A stretch of DNA of 64,000 bases, taken from an uncultured Bacteroidota bacterium. Its GTDB lineage: Bacteria > Bacteroidota > Bacteroidia > UKL13-3. How positions within the stretch are numbered: position 1 is the stretch's first letter; each line of letters begins with the position of its first letter. The position numbers and the translations under genes are program-made. The stretch spans positions 186,001-250,000 of the forward strand of contig CAINMV010000029.1 of the NCBI GenBank assembly GCA_903850915.1. Reading direction: 5' to 3'. Positions 5,864-40,731 of the stretch are shown here, in pieces. The notes below the pieces were generated by a model, which ran no database searches, had not been told where the DNA came from, and saw nothing but the letters and a program-made list of their open reading frames with translations.

Positions 5864-7306
5864 ATGACCACACAAATTACAGAGAAGAACCATTCAGCCG
5901 TTTGGATGAACTGCTTAAAATTAATTCAGGATAACTTACCTGCGCAGAGTTTTAAAACGTGGTTCGAACCTATCGTTTCTGTAAAATTAGAAAATAACAT
6001 TCTTACCATTCAAGTGCCAAGTCAGTTTTTTTATGAATGGCTAGAAGAACATTATGTTACTTTATTAAGAAAAACCATCAAACAAGAACTTGGTAAAGAT
6101 GGTAGATTAGAATATAGTATTATTGTTGAAAACAATAATTCAAAACCTTATACTATTAACCTTCCAACTGCTCAAGGACAAAAAAACGAAAATAACGAAG
6201 TAAACATCCCATTTAATGTTGGTACTACTATCAAGAATCCTTTTGTAATTCCTGGAATTAAAAAATACAATATCGAAAGCAATTTGAATCCCAAATATGT
6301 TTTCGAAAGTTTCATTGAGGGAGAAAGTAACCGATTGGCGCGCACCGCAGGAACTAATGTAGCTGCCAAACCAGCTGGAACGGCCTTTAATCCTTTAATG
6401 ATTTTTGGAGGCGTCGGCTTAGGTAAAACACATTTGGTGCATGCCATTGGAAATCAAATTAAACAGCTTCACAAAAACAAAATTGTACTTTACGTAAGCT
6501 CAGATAAATTTACTAGCCAATTTGTGGATAGTATGCGTAATGAGAAATTCAATGACTTCATGAATTTCTATCAATATATTGATGTTTTGATTTTAGATGA
6601 TGTACAGTTTTTGAGCGGAAAAGAAAAAACACAAGAAATATTCTTCCAAATTTTCAATGCATTACATCAATCTGGAAAGCAACTAATACTAACAAGCGAC
6701 CGAGCTCCTAAAGATCTTAAAGGAATGGATGAGCGTTTGTTAAGTCGTTTTAAGTGGGGATTGAGCGCAGAGCTTACGACTCCCGACTTCGAAACACGTA
6801 TTGAAATACTTCGCCAGAAAATGTACCAAGAAGGAGTTCAACTTCCGCAAGAGGTTGTTGAGTTCGTAGCGCACAATATAAATACCAATATTCGTGAACT
6901 TGAAGGTGCCATGATTTCATTATTGGCCCAAGCTTCTTTAAATCGCCGTCAAATCGACTTGGATTTAGCGAAACAAATGATTAAGAATTTTGTTAAAAAT
7001 TCAAGTCGCGAAATTAGCATAGATTATATCCAAAAGGTAGTTTGCGATTATTACAAAATCTCAGTAGAATTAGTAAAATCAAAGACAAGAAAAAGAGAAA
7101 TCGTACAAGCACGACAAATCTCTATGTTTTTTGCAAAAGATCTTACCAAGTCATCATTAAAAACCATCGGTATGTTTTTTGGTGGAAGAGACCATAGCAC
7201 TGTTATACATGCCTGCCAAACAGTAAATGACCTTATGGAAACCGACAAGCAATTTAAAAACGACGTGGTGGAAATAGGTAAAAAAATAAAAATCAATACC
7301 GTCTAA
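5864..7306 (+). CDS. dnaA: chromosomal replication initiator DnaA
   Basis: A full-length DnaA of 480 residues. Domain I (residues 1-85, helicase/DiaA contacts) is followed by a low-complexity linker. The AAA+ domain III has Walker A GGVGLGKTHL near 182-191 and Walker B VLILDDVQF near 241-249, with a sensor/arginine-finger stretch RLLSRFKWG. The C-terminal domain IV has the DnaA-box-binding signature GGRDHSTVIHA near 440. The 229-base upstream gap is AT-rich, but I found no cluster of TTATCCACA-like boxes there, so an origin is not called. The next gene reads the same way but is separated by a strong terminator. The ATG at 5864 gives the normal N terminus. Confidence 0.98.
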   Translation: MTTQITEKNHSAVWMNCLKLIQDNLPAQSFKTWFEPIVSVKLENNILTIQVPSQFFYEWLEEHYVTLLRKTIKQELGKDGRLEYSIIVENNNSKPYTINLPTAQGQKNENNEVNIPFNVGTTIKNPFVIPGIKKYNIESNLNPKYVFESFIEGESNRLARTAGTNVAAKPAGTAFNPLMIFGGVGLGKTHLVHAIGNQIKQLHKNKIVLYVSSDKFTSQFVDSMRNEKFNDFMNFYQYIDVLILDDVQFLSGKEKTQEIFFQIFNALHQSGKQLILTSDRAPKDLKGMDERLLSRFKWGLSAELTTPDFETRIEILRQKMYQEGVQLPQEVVEFVAHNINTNIRELEGAMISLLAQASLNRRQIDLDLAKQMIKNFVKNSSREISIDYIQKVVCDYYKISVELVKSKTRKREIVQARQISMFFAKDLTKSSLKTIGMFFGGRDHSTVIHACQTVNDLMETDKQFKNDVVEIGKKIKINTV

Positions 7307-7328
7307 TACTTGATTTTGAGTTCAATTT

Positions 7329-7365
7329 TAAAAATGTATGCCCAATAAGGTGTACATTTTTTTTA
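7329..7365 (+). terminator. rho-independent terminator after dnaA
   Basis: A 12-bp stem (AAAATGTATGCC paired with GGTGTACATTTT, with two G-T pairs, loop CAATAA) is followed by a T run. It starts 23 bases after the dnaA stop. Confidence 0.8.
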
Positions 7366-7417
7366 TAATACTGTGTTATCGGGACAACCAATTTAACTTT
7401 ATCACGACTGCTTGAAT

Positions 7418-7425
7418 TATATTTG
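7418..7425 (+). promoter_or_regulatory. -7 box TATATTTG, nearly leaderless
   Basis: The box matches the Bacteroidota consensus TAnnTTTG and ends only 6 bases before the ATG at 7432, so the mRNA should start at or next to the start codon. No TTG -33 box was seen at the usual spacing. Confidence 0.55.
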
Positions 7426-7431
7426 TATTTT

Positions 7432-9162
7432 ATGAAGAATAAACTCTCTCTTCTCATCCTACTTCTAATTTCGGTATTTGGTAGTGCTCAAATTTCGATG
7501 TTTTATGAAAACAGAAAGGCAAACTTCAGCTATTTTCAAACAACTAATATTAATTTAAAGCTGCCGGAAAGTATACAACAGTTTCTTGAAGAACAATTTC
7601 GATGCTCCCTCCACCTTGTAAAGAAATCTGGCAACCAATTCACCACAACCTATACATATAGCCAATATCAGAACAATATTGAAATTTACCAAGGCTTTGT
7701 CAAAGCCATCTTCGATAATAATGCCAATGAATTTCTGGTAATTTCAGACGTCTTTAAGGGAGTACCCGAATTAACAACAACCATACACAACGCTTGTTGG
7801 TATTTCCACAAAAACGAATGGGTTCTTACAACTAAAAGAGTCGAAATTAACAAGGAAGAAATTACACTAAACGAAATTATACGCGATCCAAACAATACTA
7901 TCATTGCCCAAAAGGACCTAGCACTGCGTGGCCAAGCCAAGGATTCAACAATACGAGTTCGCGTTTTTAATCCGGATCCACTCACTTCCGCGCACCGCAC
8001 TTATTTTGCTCCTTATCTAGATTATAACGATAGTGATGTAGCCGTGTTAAACACACAACGTGTTTGGAAAAACATTCAATGTAAATTCGATAACGACACT
8101 TTCTGGCTTTCCAACCAATATGTAACTCCTTTAAAATTTGATCCTGTAAAATCGTATAATCCGGTATTTCGCAAAGACACACTTTTTGACTATACACGCC
8201 ATCAGCATGAGTTTGAAGATGTTATGGTTTTTTATCATATCACTAAATTCCAAGAACATATTAACGCTATGGGTTACGACACATTGGGCTTTCGTCCAAT
8301 TCCTTGTGATGCTCATGCCTATACACAAGATCAATCGCAATATTTGCCTGGTCTAGGCTTAGTTTTTGGTACTGGAGGAATCGATGATGCTGAAGATGCT
8401 GAAATTATCACCCACGAATACACCCATTCACTAAGGGAATTTGCATCTCCACTCACCAATAATGGCTCCGAACGTCAAGCATTGGAAGAGGGATTATGTG
8501 ATTACCTTTCAACCTCCTATAAAATGGCCATTGATAGTTTCGGTTGGCGAAAATGGGCCTATTGGGATGGAAATAATCCTAGCCAAAACTGGACTGGCAG
8601 AAACATGGCGAGTTTAAAAATGTACCCGCAAGCACTCACGAGCGACCTATGGTTAAATGGAGAAATCTGGTCGAGTGCTTTAATGCGTATCTATCTGAAA
8701 TTAGGACGCACAACTACCGACAAATTGATGTTGCATACTCTTTATTATTTAAGCAACAACCTTTCCATGACTCAAACGGCACTATTATTTATTAAAGCTG
8801 ACACCGCCCTTTTTAATGGCATTCATACAGATACGATTTGGAATACCTTTGCTGAAACGCACATATTACCTTGGAAAACAGGAATTAATACACCACCAAT
8901 ATGCACAAAGCAAGACGAGCCTTTAAAATGTATTAATACATTAGCATTTGCAGAAGGTAAGGCAAGTTTGACGATAGTACTTCCCTTATTTGAAGATGGA
9001 ACCTATTATATAACCAATAGCTTGGGGCAAGAAATTACCGCATCTACATTTCAAGGTGATAACTTAATACTTGCGCCAGCTGTTATTAAATCGCCTGGTG
9101 TTTACTATTTAAGCATCAAAACACCCACATCAACGAAAATAATTAAACTGATACGTTATTAG
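7432..9162 (+). CDS. secreted HEYTH zinc metalloprotease with T9SS C-terminal domain
   Basis: This 576-residue protein begins with a clear Sec signal peptide (MKNKLSLLILLLISVFGSAQ). The ATG at 7432 is preferred to a TTG three codons upstream. A zinc motif ITHEYTHSLREF near residues 326-337 is followed about 20 residues later by ALEEGLCDYLSTSYK, whose glutamate is the likely third ligand. This layout resembles the M36 (fungalysin) and thermolysin-type gluzincins. The last 75 or so residues (SLTIVLPLFEDGTYYITNSLGQEI to YYLSIKTPTSTKIIKLIRY) look like a type A T9SS sorting domain. The protein is therefore probably exported through the outer membrane and degrades external protein. The M36 family is inferred from the motif only. 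Confidence 0.8.
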   Translation: MKNKLSLLILLLISVFGSAQISMFYENRKANFSYFQTTNINLKLPESIQQFLEEQFRCSLHLVKKSGNQFTTTYTYSQYQNNIEIYQGFVKAIFDNNANEFLVISDVFKGVPELTTTIHNACWYFHKNEWVLTTKRVEINKEEITLNEIIRDPNNTIIAQKDLALRGQAKDSTIRVRVFNPDPLTSAHRTYFAPYLDYNDSDVAVLNTQRVWKNIQCKFDNDTFWLSNQYVTPLKFDPVKSYNPVFRKDTLFDYTRHQHEFEDVMVFYHITKFQEHINAMGYDTLGFRPIPCDAHAYTQDQSQYLPGLGLVFGTGGIDDAEDAEIITHEYTHSLREFASPLTNNGSERQALEEGLCDYLSTSYKMAIDSFGWRKWAYWDGNNPSQNWTGRNMASLKMYPQALTSDLWLNGEIWSSALMRIYLKLGRTTTDKLMLHTLYYLSNNLSMTQTALLFIKADTALFNGIHTDTIWNTFAETHILPWKTGINTPPICTKQDEPLKCINTLAFAEGKASLTIVLPLFEDGTYYITNSLGQEITASTFQGDNLILAPAVIKSPGVYYLSIKTPTSTKIIKLIRY

Positions 9163-30168: not shown

Positions 30169-31623
30169 GTGATTTTTAATTCAATTGAATTTATACTTTT
30201 TCTACCCATTGTTTTTTTGCTATACTGGCTTGTTTTTAATAAGAAATTAAGCCATCAAAATGGATTACTATTAATCGCAAGTTATTTTTTTTATGGCTGG
30301 TGGAGTTGGATGTTCTTGGGCTTATTGTTTATTAGCACCGCCATGGATTATGCCTATGGTTATGGAGTGGCCTCAACCAACCGAAAAAAAGCGAGATTGT
30401 TTCTCTGGCTGAGTGCTTTAAATAACTTCGGAGTATTAGGAGTGTTTAAATACTTCAATTTTTTTGCTACAGAATTACAACACGGTTTCTTGTTATTAGG
30501 CATAAAAACAAATCCTATTTTATTACAAGTCGCGCTTCCCATTGGAATTTCATTCTATACCTTTCATGGTATGTCATATGTTTTCGATATTTATAACGGC
30601 AAGCAACGTCCTATTAAAAACTTTATTGACTATGCATTATTTGTCAGTTTTTTTCCACTGCTTGTAGCAGGTCCTATCGAACGTGCTCATCATTTACTAC
30701 CTCAATTACAAAAACGTCGTTTTTTTAACTACCAACAAGCCGTCGAAGGATGTCGTTTAATATTATGGGGATTATTTAAGAAGGTAGTTATTGCTGATGC
30801 ATTGGCAGTAACCGTCGATTCTATTTTCAGCAACTATCTCGACTTAAATGGCTTTACGCTTATTATTGGAGCCATCGCATTTAGTTTTCAAATTTATGGC
30901 GACTTTTCGGGATATTCAGATATTGCCATTGGAACGGCTAAACTATTGGGATTTGAATTGCTTAGTAATTTCAAATTTCCGTACTTTTCCAGAGATATCG
31001 CGGAGTTTTGGAGACGTTGGCATATTTCATTATCATCGTGGTTTAGAGACTACTTGTATATTCCAATGGGTGGATCTAAAAAAGGAAAACTCATCTCGAT
31101 TCGAAATACATTTGTTGTTTTTTTAATAAGTGGATTCTGGCATGGGGCTAATTGGAATTTTATTGCATGGGGCTTTATCCATGCCTGTGGATTCTTGACT
31201 TTACTATTGCTTAATAAAAACAGGAAACATGTTAATACTGTGGTGGCCCAATTCGCAAAAACACCTAGTCTAATTGAGTTATTTCAGATTATATCCACTT
31301 TTGCCTTTGTATCTTTTGCTTGGATATTTTTTAGGGCTAAAAGCCTAACCATGGCACTGGACTATATAAGACATATTGGAATTAGTATTTGGCAAGAGCC
31401 CGGGCAATTTTTCACACTACCAGGAGGTAAATTAACGATAATATATATACTTCCCCTTATTCTTATCGATTGGTATTTACGCTTCGATGAACGGAAATTA
31501 AGATTACCTAAAACGGAATTTTTAAGAATAGCTATCTACATTATACTTTCATTATTTATAGCATTTCAAATCCTAACTTATTTTTACTCAAAACCATCCT
31601 CGTTTATTTACTTCCAATTTTAA
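30169..31623 (+). CDS. MBOAT family O-acyltransferase
   Basis: A 484-residue membrane-bound O-acyltransferase of the AlgI/DltB type. It starts with GTG at 30169 (IFNSIEFILFLPIVFLLYW is the family's usual start). Signature stretches are QVALPIGISFYTFHGMSYVFDIY near 120-142, FPLLVAGPIERAHHLLPQL, YGDFSGYSDIAIGTAKLLGF, RRWHISLSSWFRDYLYIPMGG and the catalytic histidine in SGFWHGANWNFIAWG near 320. These proteins pass acyl groups across the membrane to extracellular polymers. The next gene overlaps by one base (TAATG) and encodes an SGNH-like partner, as in alginate and wall acetylation systems. The polymer is unknown. Confidence 0.92.
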   Translation: MIFNSIEFILFLPIVFLLYWLVFNKKLSHQNGLLLIASYFFYGWWSWMFLGLLFISTAMDYAYGYGVASTNRKKARLFLWLSALNNFGVLGVFKYFNFFATELQHGFLLLGIKTNPILLQVALPIGISFYTFHGMSYVFDIYNGKQRPIKNFIDYALFVSFFPLLVAGPIERAHHLLPQLQKRRFFNYQQAVEGCRLILWGLFKKVVIADALAVTVDSIFSNYLDLNGFTLIIGAIAFSFQIYGDFSGYSDIAIGTAKLLGFELLSNFKFPYFSRDIAEFWRRWHISLSSWFRDYLYIPMGGSKKGKLISIRNTFVVFLISGFWHGANWNFIAWGFIHACGFLTLLLLNKNRKHVNTVVAQFAKTPSLIELFQIISTFAFVSFAWIFFRAKSLTMALDYIRHIGISIWQEPGQFFTLPGGKLTIIYILPLILIDWYLRFDERKLRLPKTEFLRIAIYIILSLFIAFQILTYFYSKPSSFIYFQF

Positions 31624-32507
31624 TGAAATTATTTATATCAAAAACACTATTTGTTGGAATCATCGCTTTTGCTTTTTTGGTGGCCTTCAAATTAATATTA
31701 CCCGAAAACAAAAATTACAATTCAGCATTTGTAAACAAACTAGATATTTTAATTTCTCACACGCAGGAAAGAAAAATAGTGTTAATTGGTGGATCTTCTG
31801 TAGGACATGGTATTTCAGCCGAGCAGATCCAAAATGCAACGCATTTAACAACTATAAATCTTGGACACCATGCAGGATTTGGATTAGTCGACTTTCGCGA
31901 TCTTGTTTTATCAACTATAAACAAAGATGACATTATTGTTTTTGCACCTGAATGGGAATTTTATGCAAATCCGATTTACTTTGACACGGCAACCTTAGAA
32001 GACCTTTACAACAACTCACATTATTTAGAACTCACTAAGAACCCCAACTATAAAAGCTTTAAAAGTCTAATTCTAAAAAAAACGGGTATAATTAATTCAC
32101 TAATTCCAAACCACTCCCCTTGCAGATACGATTGCTACAATAACAATGGAGATATAATTAGCACTTGTGGTGCAAAACCACTCAGTATCACTGATTATTC
32201 AGTATGCTTTGATTACTTCAATTATGAGTTGTTTTCCAATACCTTCCCCTTTATCAATCGACCAAATACACTAATTGTATTTCCACCAACGCAAAAGCGC
32301 GTTTATTCACGATGTCGAAAGCAGTTTGATTTTATAGAGACTCAACTTTTTAAAACCAAGCTACTCATCTTAGATTCTGCAAGTGCAAATGTGTATGACG
32401 AATCTTGCTTTTTTGACGCTGAATATCACCTATCCTGTGAAAACAGAATATTAAGAACCAATAAAATCATACCAAAACTAATTGAATTAATGAAGATTTC
32501 GAATTAA
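31623..32507 (+). CDS. membrane-anchored SGNH-like protein, partner of the MBOAT
   Basis: A 294-residue protein with an N-terminal signal anchor (residues 8-24) and a single extracytoplasmic domain. VLIGGSSVGHGIS near residues 53-65 is the nucleophile block of SGNH hydrolases, NLGHHAGFG is block II, and FFDAEYHLSCENRILRT near 265-281 supplies the D-x-x-H pair as in DltD and AlgX/DUF1574 relatives. It is translationally coupled to the MBOAT gene. The pair probably O-acetylates a surface polysaccharide, the MBOAT exporting the acyl group and this protein transferring it. Family placement rests on motifs. Confidence 0.7.
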   Translation: MKLFISKTLFVGIIAFAFLVAFKLILPENKNYNSAFVNKLDILISHTQERKIVLIGGSSVGHGISAEQIQNATHLTTINLGHHAGFGLVDFRDLVLSTINKDDIIVFAPEWEFYANPIYFDTATLEDLYNNSHYLELTKNPNYKSFKSLILKKTGIINSLIPNHSPCRYDCYNNNGDIISTCGAKPLSITDYSVCFDYFNYELFSNTFPFINRPNTLIVFPPTQKRVYSRCRKQFDFIETQLFKTKLLILDSASANVYDESCFFDAEYHLSCENRILRTNKIIPKLIELMKISN

Positions 32508-32543: not shown

Positions 32544-33167
32544 CTATTTGCATTTCATTAAACCTCCTGTGGCAGAGGCATCACCAGGACGGCTAAGCAG
32601 TGCTTTCTCAAAAAGAAGTTTAGCCTGGTCCGTCCGGCCTAAATTGAGGTAAGTCCAAGCCAACATATGGTTGGAATCATAATCAAAAGGATACATATTG
32701 ACAACCAATTCAAAATACTTGGCAGCAACATCATACTTTTTAATCGTATAGTAGTTCATTCCAACCCAATAATTGGCAACGCTATTGTACGGATCAATTT
32801 TTAAAATCTCCTCGTATTTTTGATATGATTTATCATATTGCTTGGCCTCGTTTGCGGGTTTTATGTAACCAAAACGAGCCTCCACACTGTACTTCTTTTG
32901 GTCGATAGCTTTTTGATAATACTCCATGGAGCTATTGTATTTTTTAGAATAATAATAGAGCCAACCTAATCGCAAATTACATTCATAACAATCGGTCTGA
33001 TAAACTTTTTGTATAGCCGATATTGCTGCATTATAGTCGCCTGTAAGCTCAGCAGTATAGCTATCTTTAAAAGCTTTCTGACTTTGCGTTTCTTGCGCAG
33101 TCAATATTGTAATTGATAGCAATAAAATGGCAAAAAATGCCAAAATTCTCTTAGTTAAAAATTCCAT
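32544..33167 (-). CDS. secreted TPR protein, last gene of the seven-gene operon
   Basis: A 207-residue protein with a Sec signal (KRILAFFAILLLSITILTAQ) and about five tetratricopeptide repeats from residue 35 to 200; ANYWVGMNYYTIKKYDVAAKYF and LAWTYLNLGRTDQAKLLFEKAL parts are typical. TPRs mediate protein-protein contacts, here in the periplasm. The start overlaps the end of the preceding TPR/barrel gene by 13 bases, so the two are co-expressed and probably work together. Confidence 0.82.
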   Translation of the reverse strand: MEFLTKRILAFFAILLLSITILTAQETQSQKAFKDSYTAELTGDYNAAISAIQKVYQTDCYECNLRLGWLYYYSKKYNSSMEYYQKAIDQKKYSVEARFGYIKPANEAKQYDKSYQKYEEILKIDPYNSVANYWVGMNYYTIKKYDVAAKYFELVVNMYPFDYDSNHMLAWTYLNLGRTDQAKLLFEKALLSRPGDASATGGLMKCK

Positions 33168-34327
33168 TGGATTCCGATTGTTGTTGAATGTTGATAAAAA
33201 TTGGTGCCTACAGTACCTCCATACTGCTGTTTGTTTTCAAAAATATAGTTGATCGATACTAACGCTTTTTTAGCCACTAAATAATATATCGTTCCTCCTA
33301 CTTTAAAGGTCTTCGTATCTATGTCGTTAAAAAGATATAAGTCTTCATTATCAAGTAATACCTTGTATTTCCCAAGCGTAACATTTCCTTCGATCCAAGT
33401 ATACTTCATAAGCTTTATACCAGCTATTTGTGTTAATGTAAATTGATTTCCATAGGCCGCACGACTTATCGAATACAAATCCGTATTGCCCTTTGGATAA
33501 ACTGTAATTGACAAGTCTGCTTGCCGATAAGCCGTATCACTGAGTGTTCCTAAATGAATCATACCTTGTATTTGAACATAAGGAAGCACATATTTAACAC
33601 CTCCAAAACCCAGCTGATTTCTATAACTGTAATTATTAAAAGGCGTTTTTATATAATGATAACCTCCTATAAAGGTAATAGCTCCGCTAGCCGCAAAATT
33701 TAATTTCGCATAATATTCTTTTTGCTTAATTACAATATTCTGATTGTCGGTTACATATAAAAACTGCGGTTCACTAATAGTTTGATTAAAGTACCCAATC
33801 ACCTGTTGCAATGAAAATCGATATCCCAAGTTCACCAAAAGTGAAACACTTCCATAATGCGCATTGTGTCGGATATCTAATGTAGGATATTTAAAACTAT
33901 ATAATAAAGCGGCCGACGAAATACTGTATTTCTTAAGTTTAAGCATTTTTTTATAACTCGCCGACATTTTACTACCATAGTATCTCGATGCAAAGGTATT
34001 TTCAAGATAACGCTGATTTAAATACGTGTAATATAACGCTGTAGCATCTTTTTTATCTGTATGAAGAGCATGGGTATAGTGTTTCAAACTCTCGCTATAA
34101 TTCCCTTGCATTAAAGCCGCATAACCTACTCGCATTCGCAAAAAGGGATAGTCGACACCCGAACGAATGACGGCTTTCCCATAATGTAACAACTCAGGCC
34201 ATTGCTCTGCATAATACAGTTTTAAAGACTCCTGCTCAACAACCTCTTTTTTTGTTGCATTTTGCGCTGGGAGAACAAAGTAGCACCAACATAAAATAAA
34301 AAGTATTATTATCCTTTGGGTTGGCAT
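33155..34327 (-). CDS. YaiO-type outer membrane beta-barrel with N-terminal TPR
   Basis: The 390-residue protein has a signal peptide (IIILFILCWCYFVLPAQ), TPR-like helices (residues 25-125, including RVGYAALMQGNYSESLKHY) and then about 230 residues of alternating hydrophobic beta strands ending in an aromatic residue (YQHSTTIGIQWNF), as expected of an outer membrane barrel. The arrangement resembles the YaiO family. It overlaps both neighbours (18 bases with the urea transporter-M23 gene, 13 bases with the TPR gene). It may form the outer membrane part of the system encoded by this operon; this is inferred. Confidence 0.72.
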   Translation of the reverse strand: MPTQRIIILFILCWCYFVLPAQNATKKEVVEQESLKLYYAEQWPELLHYGKAVIRSGVDYPFLRMRVGYAALMQGNYSESLKHYTHALHTDKKDATALYYTYLNQRYLENTFASRYYGSKMSASYKKMLKLKKYSISSAALLYSFKYPTLDIRHNAHYGSVSLLVNLGYRFSLQQVIGYFNQTISEPQFLYVTDNQNIVIKQKEYYAKLNFAASGAITFIGGYHYIKTPFNNYSYRNQLGFGGVKYVLPYVQIQGMIHLGTLSDTAYRQADLSITVYPKGNTDLYSISRAAYGNQFTLTQIAGIKLMKYTWIEGNVTLGKYKVLLDNEDLYLFNDIDTKTFKVGGTIYYLVAKKALVSINYIFENKQQYGGTVGTNFYQHSTTIGIQWNF

Positions 34328-36501
34328 TGCACAGTAATCGATTGATGGGCTTGAGTAAATGTAAATGAGTTTAGTTGTTTGTCTTTTACAACTATAGTTG
34401 AAAAAGATTTCGGAATTTTAGTTTTAAAATAATGTAAATCTTGCCGACTGTGAATGGTGATTTCATCAGATAATGTATCGCTTATATTAGACTTATTCTC
34501 TGATTGATAGTGCAATGATCTAAAAATATAAAACGGAGCCACCACATCTTGCAACCATTTTCCTAAATTACTTTTACTTATTTGCAATGGAAATAAGTCA
34601 TGTGTCACCAAAGGCATGGCCGTGCTAAGGCAAATTTTGTAACAACTTAAATAAAAACGATACAATAAACTTTGCTGATCACCTTCGAAAGAGATAAAAT
34701 AAAATAAGGTATTCAAACGCTTAAAATAGGCAATGGAGCCAGTTTGATAACAATATAGATAATTGAAATTATACGCATCGGTAAACACTTCCCAAGTGGT
34801 AGTTGCGAAACCTTTAGCGGCTATATCAATTCGGAAACCGGGCGCAAACTCGAAAGCTTTAGATAGACTTTCATTAACTTCAACATTACGAACCATTTCA
34901 GTTTCTTGTGGCACCTTAAAATATAAGAAGTTAAGCACCTTATGGCGACCAGCAAGAAAGGTTGCAAAAGGATATGCTAGTGTTTTACTTCCGATGTATG
35001 GCGTGGACTGCATCTGAAAATGAAGATGAGGCTCCGGAGAACGCCCTGAATTGCCACAGGCCGCTACCACATCGCCCTGCATCACAAAATCGCCTACACG
35101 CACCTTAAATGAGTTTTTACGCAGATGGGACAACTTGGAATACAAGCCTTCGGCATGTTTAATTATTATGGTGTTACCCCAGTTCTGCTGCTGGTTAATT
35201 TTACCGATCTCATTGTCTTCCACAGCATCAACAATTTCCATGACATAGCCACTTCCGGGTGCCAAAACGGGCTTGTTAAAACAATAAAAATTCTCAGGCT
35301 TTAGCGCGTAATGTGTGTATGTTTTCATCTCTGAATCCACAATTACAAAATCAAGAGCCTTACTCCATTCCCCTTTATGCGTAATACCTCCATCATAACC
35401 CTGCGATACAATCCATTCTCCTAAAAAAGGCAATTGCAATGGAAAATAATTTTCATGATAACGACGTTCTTGTGTGCTATTGAAACTGTATAAATTTTTC
35501 TCCGGCGAATACAATTGCAAGGGAGTGAGTACCACTCTTCCCGCTTGATATTTTATGGAGAAAAAGAAAACCAACGTGATGGTGACAAAGCAAAATGGCA
35601 ACGTGTAAATGGGTAACTGAAAAACTCCGATAATCTTACTTAATGCAATAGCAATAACAAAGGTTACAAGCACACTAAGCAACGCCCATAAATAAGAATG
35701 GCCTGACGGGACAACAAAGAAAGAACCAACAGCCAATGCAACCATAATAAAATTGGCGCCCATTAAATATGCATTCATACCCGAATCGTACGCATGTACA
35801 ACACCATTAAAAAGCATAGAAACCATAAATCCTAAAATTACAAGCGTAGCACTAATGCGACTATGCAAAAGCAATCCCAAGAAAATAATTAAGCCTGCAA
35901 GCACATTATCTTGAAAGAAGATAGAACTTAAAGATTTAAAAAACATTATTACCATATTCGGTAGCTTCAGGTTCTCGAAGAACATCATAAAATCAACCAT
36001 GGGTTTATCGCCAATATTATATATTTCATTTATCCAATAAATATTGCGAGAGGTGAGATCGATTGATTCAAAATCACGGGTAACTAAAACTACCAACCAA
36101 AAGCAAAGAATAAACGGAATCGCTAAAAAAGGCAATCCTTGTTTACTAAATATAGCCCAAAGTGAGCTCGAAAAAACAACGGTAAGAATCACTAAGATTA
36201 TAAGCAAAGTCCAGAACGCTGCTCCGGGATTGTAAAAGGTGCCCATGCCAATTCCCATCATCAATCCATTAAAGGTAAATAATCCACGTTGTTCAACGGT
36301 CTTCGTGATTCCGGTATACGATGAGAATGCGATGGCGACCATTAATGCAACCAATCCGGCAAAGCCTGCGAAGGGCTTGAAAAACGTAACTAAAAGCAAT
36401 AAGGCACCAAAGAATTTATTATTCGAAAAAAAAAGTATCGAATAACTTTGCAGCACCTCGGAGGCGAGCGATAGTAAATATTTTTTCAGTTTTATTTTCA
36501 A
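34309..36501 (-). CDS. urea transporter-like membrane domain fused to an M23 peptidase domain
   Basis: A 730-residue two-part protein. Residues 10-320 form about ten membrane helices with the internal duplication of bacterial urea transporters; RGLFTFNGLMMGIGMG near 72-87 and its counterpart VVHAYDSGMNAYLMGANF near 234-251 match the selectivity-filter loops. Residues 355-500 form an M23 domain: H375 and D384 (HKGEWSKALDF), PVLAPGSGYV, H459 and EPHLHFQ with H492/H494 are the expected zinc and catalytic residues. The last 230 residues are unassigned. The start is TTG 36501; no in-frame ATG fits, and the N terminus from here matches the family. It lies 11 bases behind the decarboxylase gene. Confidence 0.82.
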   Translation of the reverse strand: MKIKLKKYLLSLASEVLQSYSILFFSNNKFFGALLLLVTFFKPFAGFAGLVALMVAIAFSSYTGITKTVEQRGLFTFNGLMMGIGMGTFYNPGAAFWTLLIILVILTVVFSSSLWAIFSKQGLPFLAIPFILCFWLVVLVTRDFESIDLTSRNIYWINEIYNIGDKPMVDFMMFFENLKLPNMVIMFFKSLSSIFFQDNVLAGLIIFLGLLLHSRISATLVILGFMVSMLFNGVVHAYDSGMNAYLMGANFIMVALAVGSFFVVPSGHSYLWALLSVLVTFVIAIALSKIIGVFQLPIYTLPFCFVTITLVFFFSIKYQAGRVVLTPLQLYSPEKNLYSFNSTQERRYHENYFPLQLPFLGEWIVSQGYDGGITHKGEWSKALDFVIVDSEMKTYTHYALKPENFYCFNKPVLAPGSGYVMEIVDAVEDNEIGKINQQQNWGNTIIIKHAEGLYSKLSHLRKNSFKVRVGDFVMQGDVVAACGNSGRSPEPHLHFQMQSTPYIGSKTLAYPFATFLAGRHKVLNFLYFKVPQETEMVRNVEVNESLSKAFEFAPGFRIDIAAKGFATTTWEVFTDAYNFNYLYCYQTGSIAYFKRLNTLFYFISFEGDQQSLLYRFYLSCYKICLSTAMPLVTHDLFPLQISKSNLGKWLQDVVAPFYIFRSLHYQSENKSNISDTLSDEITIHSRQDLHYFKTKIPKSFSTIVVKDKQLNSFTFTQAHQSITVQCQPKG

Positions 36502-36512
36502 CGTAGCATTGG

Positions 36513-37853
36513 CTATTTTAAATGTTCTGGCACCACTTCAAGTTGCTCCAAATATTCTAAATTTTCAGCTTTACGGATGATATGATTGTTTCCTTGCATA
36601 TCAATTAAAACTATATTCGGACGCATGGCAATAAATTGCATCCATTGCGTCATATTATAGGCGCCAACTTTATGAACCACAACATGGTCGCCACGATTTA
36701 ACAGCGGCAAACTTACCCATTCTCTAACAATATCAATATTCATACATAAGGGGCCGTATAACACCGTTTCCTCGGTATATTGTGAAGCCTCTTGTGCCGG
36801 ACTTATTTTATGATCATACCAAAAAGAGGTGAACATAATATTAACGCCAAAATCCATAATCGTCGCTTTTCTTCCATCGCTAAGTTTTTTATTAGCAAGC
36901 ACGGTTCCTAATAAATAACCGGCATCATCTATTAACACCCTTCCACTTTCAAGTATAAGCAATGGCAGCTCAGCCGATTTAAAACCAAAATTTAATATCG
37001 TATTGGTAATCACCTCCGCAAATTCATCCACGGTTGGAGTAGGCACAAAACCAATGGCACCTTTTAATGTATTTGCACTTGGAAATCCACCCCCCAAATC
37101 AAGGTATTTAATTGCGATATTGTATTGTTTTTTACATTCGGAAGCTAACTCACAAAGTTTAGTTGCAGCCACTCCATAGGCTTGTGTGCTTAACATATAC
37201 GTGCCAATATGCGCATGTAAACCTGTTAACGAAAGATGCTCGGATTTAGCAATTTTATTGATTGCAGCCAGCGCTTGTCCACTTTCAAAGTTGAAACCAA
37301 AACGATCCCACATCGGATAAATGCCGGTATCCATATTAACGCGTATAGCAACACGCGCCTTTTTCTTTAGCGAACTACAAATCTCAATTAATATATACAG
37401 CTCTTCAAAATGATCGATGTGAAGAAGAGAATCATTCTCCACAGCAAGCTGTATTTCGGCAGGATGCTTGTCGGGACCATTAAAAATAATATGATTGCCT
37501 GGCACGCCATTTTGTAGGGCTTTACGATATTCAAAACCACTCACCACTTCAGCCCAACTCCCTTCTTGATGAAAGATTTTACAAATGGCATTATTATAAT
37601 GTGTTTTATAACTCCACGCAAACTGAACTTTTGGATAACGAGTGTTAAAGGCACGAATAGCTGCCTGATAATTATGCCTGATCTGCTTTTCGCTCAACAC
37701 AAAAACTGGGCTACCATACTTAGTAATGATCGATTTAACCGAAACCTCATCTATATGAGTTACTGGGATTAAATCGCTCGGCATACCTGATTTGTCCATC
37801 ATACCCGCGCTCATCTTCCTTAGAAAAGGTCTTTCGTATTTTAACTTTTCCAT
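36513..37853 (-). CDS. group IV PLP-dependent decarboxylase (DAP/ornithine decarboxylase fold)
   Basis: A 446-residue alanine-racemase-fold decarboxylase. The PLP lysine is K83 in FAWSYKTHYN; H215 in GLHAHIGTYM, the glycine loop LDLGGGFPSA (254-258), LESGR (302-305), C370 in YGPLCMNID and the GAY motif (397-399) complete the active site. In DAP and ornithine decarboxylases an acidic residue follows the cysteine; here the sequence reads CMNID, so the substrate is open. A normal lysA in this place is unlikely: the neighbours are PqqD-like, ATP-grasp and M23 genes. It may decarboxylate an amino acid or a ligated product made by the ATP-grasp enzyme. That is inference. Confidence 0.85.
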   Translation of the reverse strand: MEKLKYERPFLRKMSAGMMDKSGMPSDLIPVTHIDEVSVKSIITKYGSPVFVLSEKQIRHNYQAAIRAFNTRYPKVQFAWSYKTHYNNAICKIFHQEGSWAEVVSGFEYRKALQNGVPGNHIIFNGPDKHPAEIQLAVENDSLLHIDHFEELYILIEICSSLKKKARVAIRVNMDTGIYPMWDRFGFNFESGQALAAINKIAKSEHLSLTGLHAHIGTYMLSTQAYGVAATKLCELASECKKQYNIAIKYLDLGGGFPSANTLKGAIGFVPTPTVDEFAEVITNTILNFGFKSAELPLLILESGRVLIDDAGYLLGTVLANKKLSDGRKATIMDFGVNIMFTSFWYDHKISPAQEASQYTEETVLYGPLCMNIDIVREWVSLPLLNRGDHVVVHKVGAYNMTQWMQFIAMRPNIVLIDMQGNNHIIRKAENLEYLEQLEVVPEHLK

Positions 37854-37905
37854 ATTTTAAAATCTCTTTTAATTTTTATGTTATAATAAATGGTTATTGA
37901 TTGAT

Positions 37906-38958
37906 TTACAAACTTCCGAAGGCGGTGAACTGTTGAAATTCGGAAACATCCACAATCAAATCCCAAGCATATCGAATAAACAATTTCCCCACCTCATAAT
38001 CGGTGAATGGTTCCACTTTTTCGCCCATGGCCATCTTAACCAAAGAAGCTGGTTGATTTTGTCCAGCGCCTGCGCTTAAATAAATCCATGCAGGAAAACG
38101 AGGGTTAATCTCCATGATATATAGCTCATTATTAGCCGTCATCATTATTTCAAGTTCAAAGCCACCACGCCATTTTGTGGCTGCTATAAACTTACGTGCT
38201 AATTCTAAAAATGTCTCGTTTTCGAGCGTAATTCCGGCCCAAGCTTTGCCTTTATCTGTGATGTACATTTTGCGCATGGGAATGATGCTTATTGCATTGC
38301 CTTCGCCATCGCCCAGCGCTGCAATATTAATTTCGGTACCCTGTATATATTGTTGTACAATAATGGGCAAGCCCCACTTAGCACTAATTTTATAAAAAGC
38401 TTTTTGCGCTTGTTCTAAAGTATATGCCACCGCCGCTTCGTAATATTTCCCTTTTACTACTAAAGGGTAACTAAACTCTTCGCCAATAGCAGCCAAAGTA
38501 TCAATGTTATAAATAATTTTATCTTTCGGAACATACATTCCATGCTTCTGACCAAAAGCATAGAGATTTAATTTATCTCTAGCTTCAAACATCTCAAAAT
38601 CGGGCATAAAAGTTTGGATGCCGAGTATTTTTAAGCGAGGTGCGATGGTTATAAAATTCTGCAGTTCAGCATCAAAATTGGGGATAATAACATCAATTTT
38701 CTCTTTAATATGAATAGAATTAATTACGTTGTACAATACCTCCGCACCTGACGCTGGGTAAGAAATAAGATATGTTTTATCGCAGATGCCATCCATATAA
38801 ATGCCTGGCTCTAAATTTTCATAAGCTAAACCAATGATGCGAACAGGTCGGTTTAACCCATCGCGAATGGCACGAATTACAGCTACTCCTGGTCCAGGAC
38901 TATCAATTGCATTGAGGCCAGTAACGGCAATAACAAGAGGTGGTAATAAATTTGACAT
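37906..38958 (-). CDS. ATP-grasp ligase
   Basis: A 350-residue ATP-grasp enzyme of the CarB/PylC-like type. An N-terminal Rossmann-like part (PLVIAVTGLNAIDSPGPG) is followed by the ATP-binding domain: DKLNLYAFGQKHGM, YPLVVKGKYYEAAVAY with the ATP lysine, IVQQYIQGTEINIAALGD, GGFELEIMMTANNELYIMEINPRFPAW near residues 270-296 with the Mg-binding Glu and Asn. The family joins a carboxylate to an amine through an acyl-phosphate. It lies 5 bases after the PqqD-like gene and 52 before the decarboxylase. The substrate is unknown; peptide or amino acid ligation is the usual activity. Confidence 0.87.
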   Translation of the reverse strand: MSNLLPPLVIAVTGLNAIDSPGPGVAVIRAIRDGLNRPVRIIGLAYENLEPGIYMDGICDKTYLISYPASGAEVLYNVINSIHIKEKIDVIIPNFDAELQNFITIAPRLKILGIQTFMPDFEMFEARDKLNLYAFGQKHGMYVPKDKIIYNIDTLAAIGEEFSYPLVVKGKYYEAAVAYTLEQAQKAFYKISAKWGLPIIVQQYIQGTEINIAALGDGEGNAISIIPMRKMYITDKGKAWAGITLENETFLELARKFIAATKWRGGFELEIMMTANNELYIMEINPRFPAWIYLSAGAGQNQPASLVKMAMGEKVEPFTDYEVGKLFIRYAWDLIVDVSEFQQFTAFGSL

Positions 38959-38963
38959 GGTGA

Positions 38964-39209
38964 CTATAAATTAGAAGCGAGCAAATTATTTTCTTTTAAC
39001 GTATTCATAAATTCATCAACATCTTTTTCAATGGTTGGCTTTTCGATATCATAAATATCAAGCAGCCCTCGCTTTATATTAGCGATATCCTTTCCTTCTT
39101 TTAGCATTTTAATTATTTCAGCAGCAATAGGATTTGTACTGTATGAATCTCCAGTAGCAGGGTTAAAAACAAACCCGAGTTCGTTGGTGGCGATGTTCTT
39201 TTTAAGCAT
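38964..39209 (-). CDS. PqqD-like (RiPP recognition element) protein
   Basis: An 81-residue protein from ATG 39209 that fits PqqD: a small beta hairpin with FVFNPATGDSYSTNPIAAEIIK, then IKRGLLDIYDIEKPTIEKDVDEFM split over a helix-turn-helix and the end LKENNLLA. PqqD domains bind leader peptides and hand them to modifying enzymes. A longer frame from ATG 39260 would overlap the GNAT gene; the shorter start gives the family's normal length and sits 13 bases behind the GNAT stop. No obvious precursor peptide gene is visible beside it. Confidence 0.72.
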   Translation of the reverse strand: MLKKNIATNELGFVFNPATGDSYSTNPIAAEIIKMLKEGKDIANIKRGLLDIYDIEKPTIEKDVDEFMNTLKENNLLASNL

Positions 39210-39222
39210 AATAATCTCTTTG

Positions 39223-39729
39223 TTAAAATATTTTCTGGCATACCCAGATGTAATTGTCATATAAAAATTCGTTTTTCAAAATCCCTTTTCGTGATACTGT
39301 CTCTAAAAAATATCCGTTTTTTTCTAAAACACGCATACTTGGTTTGTTATATTCAAATACTTCCGCAACCACCCTATTGACGACAAACGATTGAAAAACA
39401 TACGCTGTCATCTGACGAACTGCTTCAGTGGCAATTCCCTTGCCTTGAAATGGTTCTCCAATCCAATACGCAACTTCTACATTCATACGATAAACATCTG
39501 ATTTAAGAACAATACCGATGCCACCTACGAGTAAATCGCCGTCTATTATTGCAAAGTTTATGGCAGGGTTAATATCCAACTGCGCGTTGATAAAAACTTC
39601 TGCATCCACTGTAGTATATGGATGCGGAACATAATCGCGCATGTTGTTCCAAATCGTAATATTGTTAAACAAGGACACCAGTGTTTCTGTATCTTCTAGT
39701 GACCATGGTCTTAAAATAATATTTTCCAT
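39223..39729 (-). CDS. GNAT N-acetyltransferase (RimJ/RimL type)
   Basis: A 168-residue GNAT from ATG 39729 (MENIILRPWSLEDTETL, the family's normal start; a start at 39756 adds nine residues). VEVAYWIGEPFQGKGIATEAVRQ near residues 90-112 is the acetyl-CoA pyrophosphate loop region, and EVFEYNKPSMRVLEKNGYF is the usual C-terminal motif. It acetylates an amine, often a protein N terminus or small molecule. It is the first gene of the seven-gene leftward unit, 13 bases before the PqqD-like gene. It could also be unrelated. Confidence 0.82.
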   Translation of the reverse strand: MENIILRPWSLEDTETLVSLFNNITIWNNMRDYVPHPYTTVDAEVFINAQLDINPAINFAIIDGDLLVGGIGIVLKSDVYRMNVEVAYWIGEPFQGKGIATEAVRQMTAYVFQSFVVNRVVAEVFEYNKPSMRVLEKNGYFLETVSRKGILKNEFLYDNYIWVCQKIF

Positions 39730-39882: not shown

Positions 39883-40731
39883 ATGGAACCCATTATTAGA
39901 AATATTACAGACACTGCTCGATGGGTAGCTGTTTATAGGGCCGACGAAAGTGAGCGTACAGATGCTATTTTTCATGATCCTTTTGCACGAATGCTAGCAG
40001 GCACACACGGTGAAAATATTGTTCAAGCCATGGAACATGGGCGTAAAAATAGTTGGTCTTTTGTAGCACGTACATATTTGTTCGATAAACTAATTTTAAA
40101 TCATATAAAAAATAATTTTACGCTAATTCTGAATTTAGCAAGTGGCCTCGATGCGCGCCCATTTCGCCTCGATTTGCCAAAAGAACTTTGTTGGATTGAT
40201 GTTGACTTGCCTGAAATGAATACCTACATAAACGAGAAGATGACAGCACAAAAACCAAGGTGCAACCAAGAGCGAATTTCCATTGATCTTTCCAATCGGG
40301 AGGAACGATTGGTATTATTTGATAACATAAACCAGCGTAATAAAAAAACATTAATTCTAGCAGAAGGATTGGTAGGATATTTAAAAGATGATGAAGTAGG
40401 CGCGCTTGCTTTCGACCTTTCTCATTTTAAAAATTTTCGACATTGGGCACTCGATTTAATGTCGCCAGGCATACTGCCACTGATTAATGAGGAGATGGGT
40501 ACGCTCCTAGAAGATGCCAGAACTCCATTAATTTTCGCACCGTCTGAGGGGGAAGATTTTTTTCAACTCTTCGGCTGGAATGCAATAGCTTCTTATTCAA
40601 AACTTAAAACAGCAGGGTATTTAAATCGACTCCCCAAAGAGATGCATCAGTTTGCTTCGCAGCCAGAACCCGAAGGGCCAAAAGGTGATTTCCCTTGGTC
40701 GGGTGTTTGCTTGTTTGAAAATCGATTATAA
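39883..40731 (+). CDS. SAM-dependent O-methyltransferase-like protein
   Basis: A 282-residue class I methyltransferase of the LCMT/TIGR00027-like group. ITDTARWVAVYRADESERTDAIFHD split over the first 30 residues, DPFARMLAG near 31-39, FTLILNLASGLDARPFRLDL near 78-97 (the SAM-binding loop) and LILAEGLVGYLKDDEV near 157-172 are the conserved parts. These enzymes methylate hydroxyl or carboxyl groups in small molecules. It is divergent from the GNAT-led operon, so a shared role is possible but unproved. Confidence 0.82.
   Translation: MEPIIRNITDTARWVAVYRADESERTDAIFHDPFARMLAGTHGENIVQAMEHGRKNSWSFVARTYLFDKLILNHIKNNFTLILNLASGLDARPFRLDLPKELCWIDVDLPEMNTYINEKMTAQKPRCNQERISIDLSNREERLVLFDNINQRNKKTLILAEGLVGYLKDDEVGALAFDLSHFKNFRHWALDLMSPGILPLINEEMGTLLEDARTPLIFAPSEGEDFFQLFGWNAIASYSKLKTAGYLNRLPKEMHQFASQPEPEGPKGDFPWSGVCLFENRL

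Follow-up and report, generated by a model that had tools for sequence, protein, structure and literature searches.

Organisation of the locus

In the window, by which we mean the whole stretch of 64,000 nucleotides that was analysed, seven minus-strand genes lie between positions 32544 and 39729 and make up one tight operon. From the highest coordinate downwards they are:

39223-39729, minus strand: GNAT acetyltransferase of the RimJ/RimL type, accessory (PF13302, Acetyltransf_3, 92 bits)
38964-39209, minus strand: predicted PqqD-family peptide- or protein-binding protein, 81 aa (PF05402, 51 bits, cut-off 23.4)
37906-38958, minus strand: ATP-grasp ligase (PF02655/PF15632; ATP-grasp_3, 41 bits)
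36513-37853, minus strand: PLP decarboxylase of the alanine-racemase fold with a FigC/FslC-like pocket (Orn_Arg_deC_N, 108 bits)
34309-36501, minus strand: UT-M23 fusion with a TTG start (PF03253, 184 bits; PF01551, 60 bits), comprising a urea-transporter (UT) domain at about 35548-36501, an M23 domain at about 34897-35439 and a C-terminal beta domain at about 34309-34896
33155-34327, minus strand: outer-membrane TPR/barrel protein with N-terminal TPR-like helices and a 14-stranded beta-barrel (AlphaFold, Foldseek)
32544-33167, minus strand: exported TPR protein, 207 aa (TPR families; N-terminal hydrophobic signal-like segment)

The gaps measure 13 bp (GNAT to PqqD), 5 bp (PqqD to ATP-grasp), 52 bp (ATP-grasp to decarboxylase) and 11 bp (decarboxylase to UT-M23), after which the genes overlap, UT-M23 with the TPR/barrel gene by 19 bp and the latter with the TPR gene by 13 bp. 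The GNAT and PqqD starts, 39729 and 39209, are internal ATGs within the longest open reading frames. Strands, spacings and domain calls, as the first-pass annotation of this DNA had given them, all held when the reading frames were checked and Pfam calls were accepted above the curated cut-offs; the barrel protein has no Pfam match and is the sole gene of the operon without a family hit.

Recurrence of the gene set

A scan of genome contigs based on the decarboxylase gave 80 loci, of which 71 keep the order PqqD, ATP-grasp, decarboxylase, UT-M23, and 53 hold all six core genes, the barrel and TPR genes included. In the 295 class genomes, the 60 that have PqqD are also the 60 that have ATP-grasp, two weaker PqqD-like hits being left out of this count: a second copy in an operon-bearing genome (G045 C1:7273-7500, E 3e-9) and a gene in a genome without the ATP-grasp (G200 C19:487963-488166, E 1.5e-7). 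UT-M23 is present in 64 of the 295, and 57 of the 60 PqqD/ATP-grasp genomes carry it (Fisher p=4e-49). Two genomes have the decarboxylase, ATP-grasp and UT-M23 genes on separate contigs, and neither lacks any of the three. Among 296 genomes sampled from the phylum, 27 carry UT-M23. Beyond the class the protein extends to other families of the phylum, and the loci read there keep the operon order at about 30-60% identity.

The six-gene core recurs far beyond chance. Recurrence in other genomes was what the first-pass annotation had staked its idea of a single functional system on, and the conserved order in and outside the class, together with the strict co-occurrence, bears this idea out. That the genes are chance neighbours without a joint function has practically no likelihood: the association is too strong, the order is kept in distant relatives, the co-occurrence survives dispersal of the genes, and we found no point in favour of such a reading. 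An apparent RR-PqqD-ATP-grasp fusion in one locus (L102) is an artefact produced by a run of masked bases.

A decarboxylase probably acting on conjugated amino acids

The best solved match of the operon decarboxylase is the N-citrylornithine decarboxylase 7kh2 (183 bits), followed by DAP decarboxylases and by BtrK of butirosin biosynthesis. PMC7857480 describes FigC as having M355 in place of the acidic residue beside the catalytic Cys, a specificity helix that projects T327, T330 and Y331, and H357 and R387 near citrate; FigC, SbnH, AcsE, MccE and BtrK are grouped there as enzymes that share an ancestor with DAPDC and have no role in polyamine synthesis. Among 123 operon decarboxylases the counterparts of FigC K63, R290, C354, M355 and Y383 are invariant, that of T327 is T in 122, and that of Y331 is Y or F. 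FigC has lost the acidic residue beside the catalytic Cys and, on the specificity helix, the residue that binds a basic substrate or DAP; by the invariant CM pair and the nearly invariant T at these positions the operon enzyme would belong with this group of decarboxylases of conjugated amino acids.

The counterparts of T330, H357 and R387 are W, I and Q in the 123 sequences, and the citrate ligands H357/R387 are thus I/Q in 123/123; as the curated FslC score is also only 218 against 500, we rejected identity with the N-citrylornithine decarboxylase FigC/FslC. LysA was rejected as well (217.7 against a cut-off of 297.9, with the DAP-binding Arg replaced by T and Glu by M); a true lysA lies elsewhere in the genome (392 bits) and has CE and R at the DAP positions. 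From these residues we infer that the decarboxylase would act on an amino acid that already bears a partner other than citrate on its side chain. The earlier call of an amino-acid decarboxylase stands, and is sharpened by the likeness to the FigC/FslC-BtrK group, whose substrates are conjugated rather than free amino acids.

The PqqD-like protein, the ligase and the search for a precursor

The 81-residue protein is indeed PqqD-like, another point on which the first reading had made its proposal depend: besides the PF05402 score, the solved structures nearest to it are those of TfuB1 and TbiB1, PqqD-like proteins of lasso-peptide systems. The family match allies it with the leader-binding PqqD/RRE proteins of RiPP clusters, and peptide binding is predicted accordingly from family membership. 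It is not a phosphopantetheine carrier of the BtrI-like acyl or peptidyl kind, because such a carrier needs an invariant Ser, and 10 of 93 members have Thr for the Ser of the conserved GDS motif. The ATP-grasp call is likewise upheld by the family match and a conserved metal-binding motif, ELEIM...IMEINPR, with the E and N residues expected of a ligase, and ligase activity is predicted.

No conserved short open reading frame of 25-140 aa was found in the gaps or in the 1.2-1.5 kb flanks of the 80 loci. Short frames that do recur there mostly resemble frame shadows of the GNAT or response-regulator genes, and a conserved precursor peptide near the operon was rejected. This agrees with the first-pass annotation, which had seen no precursor gene. 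The RiPP-type recognition domain that it had named is upheld as a PqqD family member; a RiPP pathway is not supported, since an adjoining precursor peptide gene is absent from these gaps and flanks and a second variant of the system, described below, has no adjacent PqqD.

The envelope module

The AlphaFold model of UT-M23 (pLDDT 87) matches the urea transporter dvUT, with a target-normalised TM of 0.83-0.89, and LytM domains; together with PF03253 this establishes a urea-transporter fold. We aligned 113 sequences (90 from the class, 5 of variant 2 and 18 from outside the class) and looked at Q24 and E187, the urea filter positions of dvUT according to PMC4357013. The 90 class and 5 variant-2 sequences have A, S, G or C at the counterpart of E187; the 18 outside ones mostly have L or A, with one residue unlisted and neither E nor Q among those listed. 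At the counterpart of Q24, Q is found in 28 of the 90 class sequences, in none of the 5 of variant 2 and in 15 of the 18 from outside. Measured by these two positions, the UT domain does not retain the polar urea filter, and since the listed residues at E187 include neither E nor Q we consider plain urea transport unlikely.

In the M23 domain, H375, D384, H459, H492 and H494 are present in 113/113 sequences, which gives the H, D and HxH pattern of zinc and catalytic residues, as predicted from sequence and fold homology. Positive charge is found at the N-terminus and just past the last helix, and the central loop is acidic; this pattern and the topology of the urea channel, again by homology, suggest that the M23 domain lies on the cytoplasmic side, less clearly so in the outside group. 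The first reading had M23 cutting peptide bridges. The domain is real, but peptidoglycan as its target is doubtful, because topology and charges would put it on the cytoplasmic side.

The barrel protein (AlphaFold pLDDT 94) has eight N-terminal helices followed by 14 strands, and its best Foldseek folds are FadL and OmpG. A TPR-barrel exporter of the alginate/PNAG type was rejected, with 14 strands against 16-18, with FadL/OmpG folds and with no glycosyltransferase or polysaccharide synthase in the operon. The TPR protein is conserved in the operon in and outside the class. The envelope partners that the first-pass annotation had named are therefore supported by the UT fold, the barrel model and the exported TPR protein.

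Two split forms of the fusion were noted. In L142 (7944-10198) UT and M23 are two open reading frames with a 4-base overlap, either a natural split or a frameshift, and the M23 frame as read has no evident signal peptide at its start; in L124 the split falls in the C-terminal part.

Accessory genes upstream and inside the operon

Where 3.3 kb or more of sequence lies upstream of PqqD, which holds for 56 loci, GNAT is found in 24, and a His_kinase with a LytTR response regulator stands directly upstream instead of it in 20; both together are found in none. GNAT, which the first reading had listed among the seven genes, is a clade accessory outside the conserved core.

In seven loci from outside the class (L147, L148, L150, L153, L154, L155, L160) a T9SS-type cargo gene, with a signal peptide and a C-terminal sorting-like end, precedes PqqD on its strand at a distance of 9-110 bp, and a relative of it is 166 bp upstream in L156. 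This protein of about 280 aa is possibly the first gene of the operon in these bacteria. Within the operon of L085 there are proteins with T9SS tails, one of them a CotH-kinase protein (6067-8331, domains scanned) between the decarboxylase and UT-M23 genes; a similar 754-aa frame occupies the same place in L090 (2305-4569).

A replacement enzyme set

Seven genomes with UT-M23 have neither PqqD nor the ATP-grasp described so far (variant 1). Six of them carry another ATP-grasp, NF005096/PRK06524, and the seventh, G209, is 68% complete. The arrangement of this variant 2 in the six genomes is as follows:

L115 (G041), L116 (G115), L117 (G100): UT-M23 divergent beside a VOC-like gene, a 913-941 aa gene and the ATP-grasp gene
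L119 (G220): VOC gene and a frame of the decarboxylase N-terminal type beside UT-M23 at the contig end, with ATP-grasp and decarboxylase on another contig (L137)
L139 (G168): UT-M23 fragment, VOC, decarboxylase and ATP-grasp on one contig, with UT-M23, TPR and barrel on L120
L118 (G164): TPR, barrel, TPR, UT-M23, with the three enzyme genes together on a separate contig (L138), so that adjacency cannot be judged in this genome

The 913-941 aa gene, scanned in L117, encodes a PF01276 Orn/Lys/Arg decarboxylase (OKR_DC), which we take to be of fold type I. The two ATP-grasps share no genome among the 295, and in genomes without the variant-1 ATP-grasp UT-M23 associates with the NF005096 one (p=3e-6). 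Two ligase-decarboxylase pairs with unrelated decarboxylase folds thus appear to serve one envelope module, and from the six genomes we therefore take the chemistry to be ligation plus amino-acid decarboxylation. No PqqD adjoins the variant-2 enzymes or envelope module in the loci read, and the module therefore does not need peptide presentation.

Of 23 genomes with the NF005096 ATP-grasp, 17 lack UT-M23, and loci in these, where read, often hold genes for GABA transaminase, nitrilase, C45 hydrolase and semialdehyde dehydrogenase. This catabolic-looking company hints at amine metabolism. Clusters of GABA transaminase-like, nitrilase-like, OKR_DC and NF005096 genes without UT-M23 were seen in L125-L127, L129, L134 and L135 (families scanned in L125), several of them with an added C45 hydrolase or semialdehyde dehydrogenase; they look like an amine pathway, one that we could match to none by name.

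Relation to known systems

A close parallel to the enzyme trio may be BtrI-BtrJ-BtrK of butirosin, in which BtrJ is an ATP-grasp ligase. A small carrier, an ATP-grasp enzyme and an alanine-racemase-fold decarboxylase that works on a carrier-bound amino acid recur in both, BtrK acting on BtrI-bound glutamate according to PMC7857480. Unlike BtrI, an acyl carrier protein, the small protein of the operon is PqqD-like, with the Ser to Thr replacements given above, and unlike the butirosin segment the operon has no aminoglycoside genes and has an envelope module attached.

The rhizoferrin enzymes FigA/FigC (FslA/FslC), whose decarboxylase is the nearest solved one, resemble our proposal in that an amide is made on ornithine and the conjugate is then decarboxylated; unlike that pathway, the operon has an ATP-grasp and no NIS synthetase, and the citrate-binding residues are replaced. 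In microcin C, MccE carries GNAT as a domain, and the operon of the window has a GNAT gene too. MccE falls into the same decarboxylase group and acts on a ribosomal-peptide conjugate (PMC7857480); unlike microcin C, the operon has no precursor peptide that we found and no adenylating enzyme, and has ATP-grasp and PqqD instead.

The UT domain has its fold in common with dvUT and UT-B and differs from them in the loss of the urea-site Glu (among the listed residues of the 113 sequences) and, in most class members, of the Gln, and in being fused to M23 and a further beta domain. The 81-aa protein belongs to the sequence family of TbiB1 and TfuB1; unlike lasso-peptide systems the operon has no lasso cyclase or leader peptidase gene, and has the ATP-grasp and decarboxylase in their place. 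By analogy, the operon may work like BtrI-J-K and FigA-FigC, and we do not assign it to RiPP, siderophore or urea-transport systems. A search of the open literature for the gene set, for the UT-M23 fusion or for PqqD with ATP-grasp and decarboxylase gave no description, and priority is not certain; a 2009 paper on ATP-grasp amidoligases by Iyer et al. may mention such operons.

Proposed function and alternative readings

We propose, as a tentative account that may well prove wrong and that we give somewhat less than an even chance, a system of two modules, in which PqqD, ATP-grasp and decarboxylase make an amine conjugate and UT-M23, TPR and barrel proteins handle it at the envelope. The PqqD-like protein would hold a peptide or protein carrier in the cytoplasm, and the ATP-grasp enzyme, at the cost of ATP, would link a carboxylate to an amino acid by an amide bond, most probably at the side-chain amine of a residue like ornithine or lysine. 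The FigC-like PLP decarboxylase would then strip the alpha-carboxylate from the attached amino acid and leave a terminal amine, and UT-M23 in the inner membrane, the exported TPR protein and, in the outer membrane, the 14-stranded barrel would pass the product, or a released part of it, outward. Ligation would precede decarboxylation in variant 1, and in variant 2 decarboxylation probably comes first; we liken this to rhizoferrin, a single product type for which PMC7857480 gives two alternative orders of these steps. The substrate class, the step order, the direction of transport and the role of M23 are our inferences, drawn around a conserved operon, strict co-occurrence, catalytic motifs, folds, an altered urea filter and the replacement of ligase and decarboxylase. 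We count against this two-module reading the lack of a conserved small reading frame near the loci, the absence of PqqD from variant 2, and the frequent occurrence of the variant-2 ATP-grasp apart from UT-M23 in catabolic-looking company. The first-pass annotation had suggested that the operon builds a conjugate that acts on, or is exported through, the envelope; one system with enzymes and envelope partners is upheld, and the outward direction stays conjectural.

In a bolder form, which we think unlikely to hold in all its parts, this would be an undescribed envelope system found across the Bacteroidota, in which the amine-tipped conjugate made by the trio crosses by way of a repurposed urea-channel fold carrying a non-urea solute, with M23 gating or processing on the cytoplasmic side, and by the TPR-barrel, while a second lineage would have arrived there with a different ligase and a decarboxylase unrelated to the first. 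The operon is found widely in a large phylum, and, if true, the proposal would mean a new route by which amine conjugates are made and transported, a role for the urea-transporter fold that does not involve urea, a new setting for PqqD proteins beyond obvious RiPP clusters, and a clear case of a ligase-decarboxylase pair swapped for one with an unrelated decarboxylase. Through this swap, the chemistry becomes directly testable.

Other functions were weighed. A true RiPP pathway with its precursor gene elsewhere, in which PqqD binds the leader, ATP-grasp and decarboxylase tailor the core, M23 cuts off the leader and the mature peptide leaves through the envelope proteins, would fit the lasso-peptide leader binders among the solved relatives of PqqD, the grouping with MccE (PMC7857480) and the suggested cytoplasmic M23; it is rather improbable, as the 80 loci hold no conserved short reading frame in gaps or flanks and variant 2 lacks PqqD while its UT-M23 keeps all metal ligands. 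We see a small likelihood for a scavenging or catabolic system, in which an amine or amide enters through barrel and UT domain and is processed by the enzymes. UT proteins work as passive channels, the uptake channel FadL is similar in fold to the barrel, and the variant-2 ligase and decarboxylase keep company elsewhere with the transaminase, nitrilase, hydrolase and dehydrogenase genes; none of these genes, however, was recognised beside variant 1 or beside the variant-2 UT-M23, and PqqD with an ATP-consuming ligase and then a conjugate-type decarboxylase better matches synthesis.

The upstream cargo genes and the T9SS-tail proteins inside the L085 operon would speak for modification of the envelope, with the amine conjugate as a building block or acceptor at the surface, for instance for T9SS cargo, and with M23 acting on peptidoglycan. 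The chances of this are similarly small: such a neighbour is missing from most loci, cargo genes of the T9SS are frequent throughout this phylum, and the topology suggests an M23 that faces the cytoplasm. It is quite improbable that the product is a secreted signal, a diffusible autoinducer that the LytTR two-component pair directly upstream would detect, since neither the window nor the GNAT-bearing group has this pair, frequent as it is among the evaluable loci, and its kinase could equally sense the envelope.

Other genes beside the operon

Two further features flank the operon in the window:

30169-32507, plus strand: a pair of genes, by sequence MBOAT/AlgI-like and AlgX/SGNH-like, convergent with the operon; the second of the two has no Pfam or NCBIfam hit
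39883-40731, plus strand: a protein of the leucine carboxyl methyltransferase family (PF04072), adjoining the operon

A gene of the PF04072 family stands beside the operon in 6 of the 80 related loci, upstream in 4 and downstream in 2.
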